DNA from: Nitratidesulfovibrio sp. SRB-5
GTDB lineage: Bacteria; Desulfobacterota; Desulfovibrionia; Desulfovibrionales; Desulfovibrionaceae
DNA length: 64,000 nt
NCBI RefSeq assembly: GCF_019931275.1
Contig: NZ_JAIOTY010000002.1
Location: 1,576,631 to 1,640,630 of the forward strand
Direction: 5' to 3'
This document shows, piece by piece, positions 15,260 through 20,973 of the stretch. The position numbers and the translations under genes are program-made. A model generated the notes under the pieces. It was not told the DNA's origin, searched no databases, and saw nothing but the letters and a program-made list of their open reading frames with translations. How positions within the stretch are numbered: the stretch's first letter is position 1; each line of letters begins with the position of its first letter.

Positions 15260-16108
15260 TTACGCCAGGGCCAGCCCCAGCCCTTCCAGGAACATCTCGC
15301 CAGAGAAGACGCGCACGGCCTTGCCGGAAAGGAACACCGAGCCGCCTTCAATGGATATGCCAAGGATTTCGCCGCCGGAGCTCCTGACATTCACCGTGGA
15401 TTCCGCAAGCCCCAGCGCATGCGCGATGAACGCGCCCGCAGCCGCCCCCGTGCCGCAGGCGTAGGTTTCGTCCTCCACGCCGCGTTCGAAGGTGCGCAGG
15501 TGGATGTTCCTGCGGTCGATGACCTGCGCGAAGTTGGCGTTGGTGCCCGCAGGCGCGAAGTGCGCGTGGCGGCGCAACGCCGCGCCCAGTGTGCGCACGT
15601 CCACGACCGAGGCGTCGCGTTTGAACACCACGGCATGGGGTACCCCGGTGTTCACGAAGTGCACCATGTCGCGGCCTTCGCCAAGGTCCAGTTCGATGCC
15701 CAGGGTCAGGTCGCGCGGCGGGGTCAGTTCCACCTTGGCCATTCCGGCGGCCACGTCGGCCTCGGCGCGGATGAGCCCGGCATCGGTGCCGAAGACGTGC
15801 TTCGGCCCGGCAAAGCCCAGTTCCACAGCCAGCAGCGCGGCGCAGCGCGAAGCGTTGCCGCACATTTCGGCGCGCGAGCCGTCGGCATTGTAGAAGTGCC
15901 AGATATAGTCGCCTTCGCGGTCTTTCGGCGTTTCATCCAGAAAGACGAGGCCGTCGGCGCCCACGCCGAAAGCGCGGCGGCACACGGAGCGGGCCCAGTC
16001 GGGCATGGCCGCGACGGGCAGGCCCAGTGCCCGGTTGTCGATGAATACGAAGTCGTTACCGCACCCATGCAGCTTGTGGATGGGTACGGTGCGTGCCTTG
16101 CCGCTCAT
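15260..16108 (-). CDS. dapF: Diaminopimelate epimerase
   Basis: 282 aa with ribosome site AAGGAG. It interconverts L,L- and meso-diaminopimelate for lysine and peptidoglycan. The two catalytic Cys are in EMCGNASRC (about residue 82) and YACGTGAAA (about residue 217). The N terminus HKLHGCGNDFVFID is the usual DapF start. It sits between the UshA-like gene (52-bp gap) and dapA on the same strand, so lysine genes are joined to a less expected partner. Annotation secure. Confidence 0.97.
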   Translation of the reverse strand: MSGKARTVPIHKLHGCGNDFVFIDNRALGLPVAAMPDWARSVCRRAFGVGADGLVFLDETPKDREGDYIWHFYNADGSRAEMCGNASRCAALLAVELGFAGPKHVFGTDAGLIRAEADVAAGMAKVELTPPRDLTLGIELDLGEGRDMVHFVNTGVPHAVVFKRDASVVDVRTLGAALRRHAHFAPAGTNANFAQVIDRRNIHLRTFERGVEDETYACGTGAAAGAFIAHALGLAESTVNVRSSGGEILGISIEGGSVFLSGKAVRVFSGEMFLEGLGLALA

Positions 16109-16160: not shown

Positions 16161-17570
16161 CTACCACACGGCGGGAACCGTGCCGACGACCGCCTCGACG
16201 GCAGGATCCGGCTCCACGGCGTCCTTCAGGGGGACCTGCCGGACGGAAATATCTATGCCCACGATCCAGTGCCGGGGCTGCGAAAGGCCCTGAACCCGCT
16301 GGGGCCAGGCCAGTACGTCCACCACGTTGACGCTTCTTCCCTGCATGTCTGGCCGGGACCATAGCAGCGAAGGTGCCGCGCCGTCCACGACCCCGTCGAA
16401 ACCGGTGCCGATGCCCCCGCCGAGCAGGATGTGGAAGGCCTGACCAAGCTCCGCCAGATAGCGCCGCTCGCCCAGGCCGCCCCATCCGGCCACGCCGATG
16501 ACCAGGTCGGCCCGGCCGCGCGCGGCCAGCCCGGCCTGCGCCGCCTGCGCGGCCATGGCGGGGCTGGGGTCTTCCCACGGCTTGGGCAGCGCGGGCAGGA
16601 AGACCACGGCCACGGTGCGCTCGGCGCCGTTGTCGCCCGCCACGCGATGCAGGCGGGTGACGGGTTCGCCGCCCACCTCGCGGAAGCCCTTGGGGGCACC
16701 GCCCGCATGGTCGCGGAACCAGGCGGCGGCAGCGGCGGACAGGTAGCCGTCGTCCACGCGCAGCAGGTCGTAGGCCTTGCGCGTCATGGATGCCAGGCGG
16801 CCCGCCGCGTCTTCTCCGGCGTCCGGGGCGAATTCGTCGGGACCGGCCAGCACCAGGGTCGGGATGCCGTCCTGACCGCGCCATTGCTTGTACATGCTCG
16901 CCCGCCGGGCAAGCCCACCAGAGGTGCCGCCCCCTCAGGAGGGGCAGGGGTGCAGTGTCCCCTTGGTGCTGGCGTTGTAGAGGATGCGCAGTACCGGCCT
17001 GCCGGATGCATCGCCGAAGGCTCCCTGTGCCGCCGTGGCGTACGGCCCGTCCTGTCCGCTCGGACCATCCTGGCCTTGTGGCTGCACCAGTGCGAAATCG
17101 GCCAGGCCGCGCGGGGCGGCAACAGGAGCGGTTTCGGTTGCGGGCGGTGCCGCTGGCGCGGGCATGTGCACGCGCGGCTCGCCGGCGGAGGCAAAGGGCA
17201 GGCCCGTGGGCAGGCCGTCGCGCGCCATGGCGGGCGATGCCGGTGCGGTGCCGCCGGTCTGGCCGTCTGTCGGGCTGCCTGTCAGGCTGCCTGTTGCGAC
17301 CGGGGCATCCTGCGCGGGGGCCATGGCCGTGGCGGCAGCGGGGCCGGACGGCCCGGCAGCGCCGGATTGCCCGGTCTGGCCCGACGGGGCGCACGCCACC
17401 AGCAGCGCGCACAGCATCACATGCAGCAGGCAACAACACAGCCACGCCGCAGTCCCGTGCGGGCGCGGCTGGGTGAAACGGAAAGGATGGGGCGGATGCG
17501 GGCGAAGCGTCGGGGCGGCGGCACGGAGAGCCCGTGCCGCCGTGCCGTCAGGCGATGACTGCGAGGACAT
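16161..17570 (-). CDS. UshA-like lipoprotein, probable selenoprotein (in-frame UGA)
   Basis: One frame runs from the ATG at 17570 to the TAG at 16161-16163, broken only by TGA at 16935-16937. Read as selenocysteine, the product is 469 aa with Sec at position 212 in a C-P-S-U motif (TLHPCPSUGG), a CxxU redox pair. A hairpin suited to a bacterial SECIS follows (16896-16914). The N terminus has a hydrophobic segment (about residues 41-59) and a lipobox LVAC (Cys60), so the protein is likely a lipoprotein. Residues 61-195 are Gly/Pro/Ala-rich. After the Sec, GGLARRASMYKQW resembles the start of UshA-type metallophosphatases; the usual Asp/His metal motif is replaced by the CPSU stretch. NCBI uses the name UshA-like (seleno)protein for such proteins, from memory. 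It starts 3 nt after the HU stop, upstream of dapF. Alternatives: a pseudogene or two genes, both less likely. Confidence 0.75.
16896..16937 (-). promoter_or_regulatory. Bacterial SECIS candidate with UGA codon
   Basis: The UGA is at 16937-16935. After 20 nt comes GCTTGCCC-GGC-GGGCGAGC (16914-16896): an 8-bp stem with one G-U pair and a 3-nt loop whose first base is G. Loop position (about 28 nt past the UGA) and loop G fit published rules for SelB-binding bSECIS elements. Confidence 0.65.
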
Positions 17571-17573
17571 CGC

Positions 17574-17849
17574 CTAATCGTTGAGGAATTCTTTCAGTTC
17601 CTTCCCGGCGCGGAAGAAGGGCAGGCGTTTGGGCTGAACGACGACCATGTCGCCGGTCTTGGGGTTGCGACCGGAGTAGCCGCCGTAGTCCTTGACCTTG
17701 AAGCTGCCGAAACCGCGGATTTCCACGCGGTCGCCATCGGCCAGCGCTTCCTTCATGTTGTCCACGAAGGTGTTCACGACCATGGCGGCTTCCTCGATGG
17801 GGATGTTCGTCTCTTCGGACAGCGTCTTGATGAGTTCGCTCTTGTTCAT
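17574..17849 (-). CDS. HU-family DNA-binding protein
   Basis: 91 aa, start MNKSELIKTLSEETNI, ribosome site GGAGG. It has the HU dimer fold signature: GDRVEIRGFGSFKVKDYGG (about residues 45-63, the bacterial histone-like motif) and RNPKTGD at the DNA-binding arm with the intercalating proline. It bends and compacts DNA. A promoter is predicted upstream. Its stop is 3 nt before the UshA-like start, so the abundant HU transcript may drive that gene as well as dapF and dapA. HU versus IHF cannot be settled, though a homodimeric HU is likeliest. Confidence 0.95.
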   Translation of the reverse strand: MNKSELIKTLSEETNIPIEEAAMVVNTFVDNMKEALADGDRVEIRGFGSFKVKDYGGYSGRNPKTGDMVVVQPKRLPFFRAGKELKEFLND

Positions 17850-19861: not shown

Positions 19862-20973
19862 GGAGGTACAGCAGATAGTCCCGCAGGAGCTGATCGATGC
19901 GGCCGTCCAGCACGGCCTCGACGTCGCCAATTTCCGTATTGGTGCGGTGGTCCTTCACAAGGCGGTACGGTTGCAGCGTGTAGGTGCGGATCTGGCTGCC
20001 GAAGCCGATGGCGTCCTTGCCCGCGTACTGGGCCTTTTTCTCTTCTTCCAGCTTGCGCAGTTCCAGTTCGTACAGGCGGGCGCGCAGGATCTGCATGGCC
20101 GTGTCGCGGTTGCTGTGCTGCGACTTTTCGTTCTGGCACTGGGCGGAAATGCCCGTGGGCAGGTGGGTGATGCGCACGGCGGAACTGGTGGTGTTCACGC
20201 TCTGGCCGCCGGGGCCGCTGGAGCGGAAGATGTCGATGCGCAGGTCCGTGTCCTTGATGTCCACGGTGATTTCCTGGCCCACGTCGGGGATCACGTCCAC
20301 AGAGGCGAAGGAGGTGTGCCGACGACCCGACGAATCGAACGGCGAGATGCGGATGAGACGGTGGATGCCTTTTTCGCCCTTCAGCAGGCCGTAGGCGTTG
20401 GGCCCGGCCATGCGCAGGGTGACGCTTTTCACGCCCGCCTCGTCGCCCGCCAGGTAATCCAGGTATTCGGCCTTCATGTCGTGGGTGTCGGCCCAGCGCA
20501 GGTACATGCGCACCAGCATCTCGGCCCAGTCCTGGGCTTCGGTGCCGCCCGCGCCGGGGTGGATTTCCACGATGGCGGGCATGCGGTCTTCCTTGCCGGA
20601 GAGGAGCATGTTCATCTCCGTCTCCTGCAGCAGGTTTTGCAGCACCGTCACCTGTTCGGCCAGCGACTCCAGGGCCTCTTGCCCCGGTTCGCCCGCGGCT
20701 TCCTCTTCCTCGGCCAAGGTCAGCCATTCGGTGACGTCGCGGCGGCAGGTTTCCAGCCGCTCAAGGCGCGTTATCTCGCCTTCGAGCTGGCTTTTTTCCT
20801 GCAAGACCGGGGTGAGTTTTTCGGGGTTGTTCCAGGCGTCGGGGCTGGAAAGCTGGCGCTCGATTTCGTCGAGGCGGTTGCGGTTGCCCGCAAGGTCAAA
20901 GACGCCCCCAGAGGGAGGCGTACTGGTCGATGAGGGCGGCGCTGCGCGCGCGCAATTCGGCAAGCTGAAGCAT
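19842..20973 (-). CDS. prfB: Peptide chain release factor 2, read through a programmed +1 frameshift
   Basis: Two frames are joined. The first runs from the ATG at 20973 ([16 protein letters not shown]...) for 25 codons to CTT-TGA. After a +1 shift the frame continues from GAC at 20897 to the stop at 19842, 376 aa in total. The GGQ motif is present ([13 protein letters not shown]), as is the SPF-type RF2 stop-recognition region ([14 protein letters not shown]). RF2 ends translation at UGA and UAA. The leading frame ends in UGA, so low RF2 levels favour the shift and restore RF2. It lies 43 bp after lnt and overlaps the GGDEF gene. Annotation secure. Confidence 0.97.
20895..20909 (-). promoter_or_regulatory. 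prfB programmed frameshift site
   Basis: Minus strand GGGGGCGTCTTTGAC. GGGGG (20909-20905) acts as the internal Shine-Dalgarno, and CTT-TGA-C (20901-20895) is the slippery stop. The spacing of three bases before CTT is the same as in the E. coli site. Confidence 0.93.

Follow-up and report, generated by a model that had tools for sequence, protein, structure and literature searches.

The window analysed here, a stretch of 64,000 nucleotides from Nitratidesulfovibrio sp. SRB-5, holds on its minus strand a reading frame broken by a single TGA, and the question it raises is whether this codon ends a short lipoprotein or codes for selenocysteine (Sec, U) and, in the second case, what such a protein might do. 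Translation gave one frame from 17570 to 16161, 469 residues in length, with the TGA at 16937-16935 as its only internal stop; it falls at residue 212 in the context H-P-C-P-S-U-G-G (...HPCPSUGGG...), and the preliminary description of this DNA was right in placing the break in a C-P-S-U motif. Standard gene calling, it had added, would split the gene in two, and mechanical ORF calling did return two ORFs, 17570-16935 and 16895-16161. The parts of the locus are as follows:

16161..17570, minus strand: whole gene, almost certainly of a selenoprotein, 469 residues with Sec212; ATG at 17570, stop codon TAG at 16163-16161; 225.1 bits against NF049981 (cut-off 140)
16935..16937, minus strand: in-frame TGA, almost certainly the selenocysteine codon, in C-P-S-U; the preceding three codons at 16946-16938
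16896..16914, minus strand: bSECIS-like hairpin, 8 bp, loop GGC, within the codons for G-L-A-R-R-A-S
16185..16991, minus strand: UshA-like domain, residues 194-462, metal ligands absent
17391..17402, minus strand: lipobox-like L-V-A-C, residues 57-60, 3' of a hydrophobic stretch, by eye from the translation
16992..17390, minus strand: Pro/Ala/Gln-rich linker from lipobox to domain, 133 residues, from the translation
17574..17849, minus strand: HU-type DNA-binding protein, separated from the downstream selenoprotein start by 3 nt
15260..16108, minus strand: dapF (diaminopimelate epimerase), next gene downstream, followed by dapA (the latter named by eye)

The UGA codon across homologues

The read-through protein scored well above the curated cut-off of NCBIfam NF049981, "UshA-like (seleno)protein family 2", matching positions 1-261 of 262 and carrying the CxxU at a single column, where Sec (or Cys) stands; taken singly, the C-terminal ORF reached 159.6 bits and the N-terminal one matched 18 positions at 13.1 bits. 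Given this match and the listing of NF049981 in a 2026 review (PMC13188914; motif CxxU, WP_420705249.1, source GenBank annotated), the identity of the gene is already known, the family having been named and catalogued. From the lipobox-like motif after the hydrophobic stretch, the window protein is predicted to be an exported lipoprotein. A lipobox is not general in the family, being found by a crude pattern in 10 of 136 rows, and among the 20 upstream stretches inspected there were several (L022, L070, L086 and L089) in which a hydrophobic stretch runs directly into the domain.

The 138 ORFs with a family match yielded, as unique rows, 103 with TGA and 27 with Cys, one L142 fragment being left out and nine duplicates merged. 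The preliminary description had proposed to align homologues at this position, and the column holds either TGA or a Cys codon: it was invariant in a 60-row alignment (U read as C), and the U or C before the GG motif was missing in only one fragment among the 138 ORFs. Cys homologues read straight through the TGA column with unchanged flanking residues, the combination of in-frame UGA and aligned Cys by which bacterial selenoproteins are recognized. The distance from U to GG was six codons in every one of the 103 TGA rows vs. 21 of the 27 Cys rows (4 to 9 being allowed), and near relatives of the window carry the same TGA (L001-L004, L120 and L124; L114, L117 and L123 look like second fetches of three near-relative genomes). 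Two TGA rows, L089:3080-3865 (PIKAU) and L141:1489-2280 (PEAGU), are without the Cys of CxxU, so that a bond within this motif cannot be the mechanism in all copies; judging by the aligned sequences, it is Sec by itself that stays constant and not its pairing with Cys. In a quickly built tree of 128 rows, parsimony counted seven switches between Sec and Cys, and well-supported branches require at least three. In genus g7 the gene occurs in tandem, with the Cys form first and the TGA form after it (L053, L055, L056, L058, L059, L061, L062, L064, L067 and L068).

The recurrence of the TGA bears on the possibility that the window gene is in decay or was mis-sequenced. The family does include one broken copy, L142 of genome G275, which lies in pieces, one of them with a TAG; the TGA, on the other hand, recurs at the same place in L001-L004, L120 and L124, and the read-through product matches the whole NF049981 profile at 225.1 bits, leaving decay or error a practically negligible chance.

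Downstream hairpin and selenocysteine machinery

The bacterial selenocysteine insertion element (bSECIS) is a hairpin located just downstream of the UGA, with a small loop containing G (PMC1088965), and both the window sequence and the comparison of rows revealed such a structure. The hairpin at 16914-16896, GCUUGCCC-GGC-GGGCGAGC, has eight pairs, fully paired with one G-U, and a 3-nt loop starting with G; its first loop nucleotide is at +32 relative to the UGA's U, with 28 nt between UGA and loop, in accordance with the earlier claim of a G-initial 3-nt loop about 28 nt past the codon. Folding of the single sequence recovered the same hairpin, but dinucleotide shuffles of the 53-nt stretch folded at least as well in 74 of 200 cases (z -0.13), and since it is thus unremarkable in G+C-rich DNA, the window hairpin alone would prove nothing. 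Against synonymous-codon randomisation (2000 draws), it stood out both in the run of pairs (P = 0.0085) and in energy (P = 0.0055).

When pairs were counted outward from +31/+35, at fixed position, the mean run in TGA rows was 6.34 pairs vs. 2.08 ± 0.21 under synonymous randomisation (n = 103), and in Cys rows 2.95 vs. 1.77 ± 0.35; runs of at least five pairs were present in 95 of 103 TGA rows and in 6 of 21 Cys rows of equal spacing, counts which, like those of codons below, are not independent because the homologue rows are related. In-register pairing comprised 86% of cells in TGA rows, as compared to 30-48% with the 3' partner slid by 1-3, and 66% of cells in Cys rows as compared to 30-41% after sliding; some of the stem pairing is hence a by-product of the protein motif. 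Eight of the 103 TGA rows had no stem at the fixed place, and the fold of each shows a different hairpin. The two arginine codons of loop and stem were CGG/AGG in 86 and 84 of 93 TGA rows, in 12 of 25 Cys rows each, and in 447 of the 1275 other arginine codons of the TGA domains, a usage that suits the stem (the 93 TGA rows, here and in the free search, leave out L089 and L141). A free search for any hairpin gave mean energies of -14.4 in TGA (93 rows) and -14.1 in Cys copies (25 rows) and is uninformative, because some hairpin can nearly always be found in such DNA; the Rfam search returned nothing near its gathering score. The support for the hairpin is hence the comparison together with the synonymous null, while single-sequence folding gives none.

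The preliminary description had also suggested checking the genome for selA-D, and all four genes are present over cut-off, with selA at 615.7, selB at 358.6, tRNA-Sec (selC) at 83.6 and selD at 352.5 bits. The selD match (L049, G000:C1:1354528-1355460) itself carries an in-frame TGA, so the selenophosphate synthetase of this genome is probably a selenoprotein too. The machinery was compared with the form of the gene in a non-random set of 23 genomes, chosen for weak SelB scores or for Cys copies and supplemented with the window's own genome and relatives. Ten of these were without SelA and SelB over cut-off, and nine of the ten have Cys copies only (G168, G170, G198, G201, G223, G224, G233, G243 and G291; 78-97% complete, 3-280 contigs); in the tenth, G289, a Cys copy is accompanied by one with TGA, even though both proteins fell short of the cut-off. 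SelA without SelB was found in G047, G228, G268, G244 and G214, all with a TGA copy and assembled in 230-510 contigs (220-510 when G289 is included), and SelB with a partial SelA in G179, which has a Cys copy. Both proteins are encoded in seven genomes, four with TGA (G000, G055, G281 and G287) and three, of genus g9 (G023, G095 and G247), with Cys copies despite the presence of SelA and SelB.

An ordinary stop would mean that a 211-residue lipoprotein ends at the UGA and that a second protein restarts at the ATG at 16895, precisely the two ORFs that mechanical calling yields. Such a stop is nevertheless read through in Cys homologues with the same flanking residues, would leave an N-terminal ORF with 13.1 bits over 18 positions of NF049981, and does not fit a hairpin and spacing far better kept in TGA than in Cys copies; we consider this reading highly improbable. 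With the column shared by TGA and Cys, the hairpin conserved in TGA copies and selA-D present, the selenoprotein proposed in the preliminary description is well supported, and the TGA at 16937-16935, as far as sequence comparison can tell, almost certainly codes for selenocysteine. SelB, held by the hairpin at 16914-16896, would bring Sec-tRNA to this UGA, and the ribosome would read on to 16161, giving one exported selenoprotein.

The fold and its former metal site

Pfam gave only chance-level matches for the window protein and 60 family members, each in one member, and a search of the PDB by sequence reached 5'-nucleotidases and SoxB at E 0.0009-0.025 only, for which reason a fold search was needed. 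AlphaFold2 on 60 rows produced a model with pLDDT 92.9 and pTM 0.92 (mean 74 in the stretch holding U, residues 21-30 of the model), which covers the UshA-like domain from residue 194 on. With this model Foldseek retrieved CD73, cyclic phosphodiesterases and UshA (1ush, E 8.4e-11), and VIA gave SoxB 2wdc at Z 23.9 (3.0 Å, 247 residues) and UshA 1ush at Z 21.7 (3.1 Å, 247 residues), SoxB and several 5'-nucleotidases such as CD73 being tied within 1 at the top. The UshA-like fold of the earlier description was thereby borne out by prediction and by both structure searches. The model could be aligned with residues 31-357 of 1ush, that is with the N-terminal phosphoesterase domain only; the C-terminal substrate-binding domain is absent, and the protein ends 7 residues past the NF049981 profile match. 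A GG-x-ARR stretch is common to the window protein and two solved 5'-nucleotidases.

The ligands that define the dinuclear site of UshA and the 5'-nucleotidases (DxH, GD, GNHE, SHxG and GHxH) have been largely lost. When the 60 family rows were aligned with five motif-keeping nucleotidases of the same class, the metal residues were kept, in order, in 6 (D of DxH), 4 (H of DxH), 5 (D of GD), 0 (N), 0 (H of GNHE), 2 (H of SHxG), 0 (H) and 0 (H of GHxH) of the 60 rows, both H of GHxH being replaced by G, in 60 and 58 rows; one D of the window protein falls on the GD position in this alignment and off it in the alignment with family 1. The C-P-x-U motif sits 8-11 residues past the old D of DxH; it may lie in the old metal pocket. 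The preliminary description had CxxU replacing the metal site and changing the chemistry of the enzyme: the loss of the ligands is apparent from the alignment, while the change to redox chemistry is what we infer. Another degenerate nucleotidase-like protein was noticed in L156 and L157, with LTTSGLNG replacing DxH and with GNHE and SH kept.

The alignment also bears on whether the selenoprotein could still be a phosphoesterase or thiosulfohydrolase, with Sec as metal ligand or nucleophile in a SoxB-like reaction. The highest VIA score is that of SoxB (Z 23.9), with CD73 and other 5'-nucleotidases within 1 of it, and the near relatives carry Desulfovibrio-type names, Desulfovibrio-type bacteria being sulfur-metabolising; yet each of the eight dinuclear-site ligands is rare or lacking across the 60 rows and the second domain is missing, and a retained hydrolase appears quite improbable. 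Loss of phosphoesterase activity is, by comparison, likely. That the window gene encodes a selenoprotein built on a degenerate UshA-type domain, a statement that does not extend to the redox step, is very probable.

Possible redox function and related families

In the sample of the class, NF049981 was matched at E <= 0.001 in 162 of 297 genomes and above cut-off in 159, and in the phylum sample in 6 of 395 genomes at E <= 1e-30, all from the window's own family. Upstream and on the same strand, the 62 loci showed prfB in 58, HU in 55, a ParA-like gene in 55 and a diguanylate-cyclase-like ORF in 54; downstream, also on the same strand, dapA was found in 42 and dapF in 23, counts limited by flanks of about 3 kb (HU, ParA-like and dapF were named by Pfam, the others by eye). 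The family gene thus sits mostly in one inherited locus; L069, L087, L105 and L108 have none of them, and each of these genomes has another copy. In the window, prfB (release factor 2, by eye) belongs to the same cluster, about 3.3 kb upstream, and carries CTTTGA at 20896-20901 on the minus strand, which we take to be the usual programmed frameshift site at a UGA. Its occurrence upstream of a UGA-read gene in 58 of 62 loci may be a coincidence.

Exported proteins that carry a Cys and a Sec as a pair can bind thiophilic metals, and the CPxU might be a binding or detoxifying site for soft metals or metalloids (Hg, As, Cu, Se) rather than a site of electron transfer, a reading with which the tandem Cys and Sec copies coexisting in one genus would also agree. 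The conserved neighbours that could be identified (prfB, the diguanylate-cyclase-like ORF, ParA-like, HU, dapF and dapA) include none tied to metal resistance, and we regard a metal site as unlikely. A thiol/selenol redox protein is the function towards which we lean, with some reserve. In such a protein, where alignment and predicted model show that the N-terminal 5'-nucleotidase/SoxB fold was kept while the dinuclear metal ligands and the second domain were lost, the C-P-x-U pair in the loop after strand 1 would be the redox site: the selenol would react with a disulfide, a sulfur species or another oxidant outside the cytoplasm, C209 would resolve the selenenyl-sulfide, and a haem or thiol partner would reset the protein.

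The analogy comes from family 1 (NF041198), the earlier UshA-like selenoprotein of a 2008 survey (PMC2398784; COG0737 with CxU), which also appears in a 2022 review. That survey counts UshA-like as one of the few families in which a Cys-based redox motif is not conserved. The entries for family 2 in PMC13188914 consist of name, motif and example accession, with no biochemical function, and those for family 1 in PMC13188914, PMC2398784 and the 2022 review give little beyond this and no biochemistry. In family 1 the Sec stands as P-C-G-U in the loop after strand 1, as in family 2. Most metal ligands are lost (12 of the 13 usable rows retain the D of DxH), and all 13 of these rows (of 14, L163 being left out) show four CxxCH motifs, the C-terminal part matching stand-alone c554-type cytochromes (PF13435 for one). 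By analogy with this Sec in the same loop and this tetrahaem domain, family 2 would most likely work in redox reactions together with haem or thiol partners. The window's genome has a 79.2-bit match to the family-1 C-terminal part, and NF041198 itself was over cut-off in none of the 297 genomes of the class and in 32 of 395 in the phylum sample; profile matches to family 1 also occur in genomes without family 2, which makes the redox link between the two families a weak one.

As an identification the gene is ordinary, and the function of its family is the part that could matter. A widespread enzyme fold has, according to the alignment, lost its catalytic metal site and gained Sec in a loop adjoining an old ligand position, and it is this loss of metal ligands that is worth following up; corresponding Sec and Cys forms, in some cases adjacent within a single genome, would allow a good test of what selenium buys. 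We would give even chances to the broader view that the two related families are exported selenol electron-transfer proteins, in which a phosphoesterase fold gave up its dinuclear metal centre and acquired in its stead a Sec/Cys redox centre in the adjoining loop, one of them being fused to a tetrahaem cytochrome, and in which Sec gave way to Cys where the Sec machinery was lost.

Among known systems, the window protein shares with NF049981 family 2 the whole domain and the CxxU with Sec or Cys, and differs from it in its long N-terminal linker with a lipobox-like motif. With family 1 (NF041198; COG0737) it has in common the fold region, the Sec in the loop after strand 1 and the loss of most ligands, but it scores 13.9 bits for a cut-off of 275 and is outside that family, which has CxU and a tetrahaem C-terminal domain like c554, whereas the window protein has CxxU and no CxxCH in its translation. 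The UshA/CD73 5'-nucleotidases and SoxB share its N-terminal fold, and unlike the window protein they have the DxH, GD, GNHE, SHxG and GHxH ligands and a second domain.
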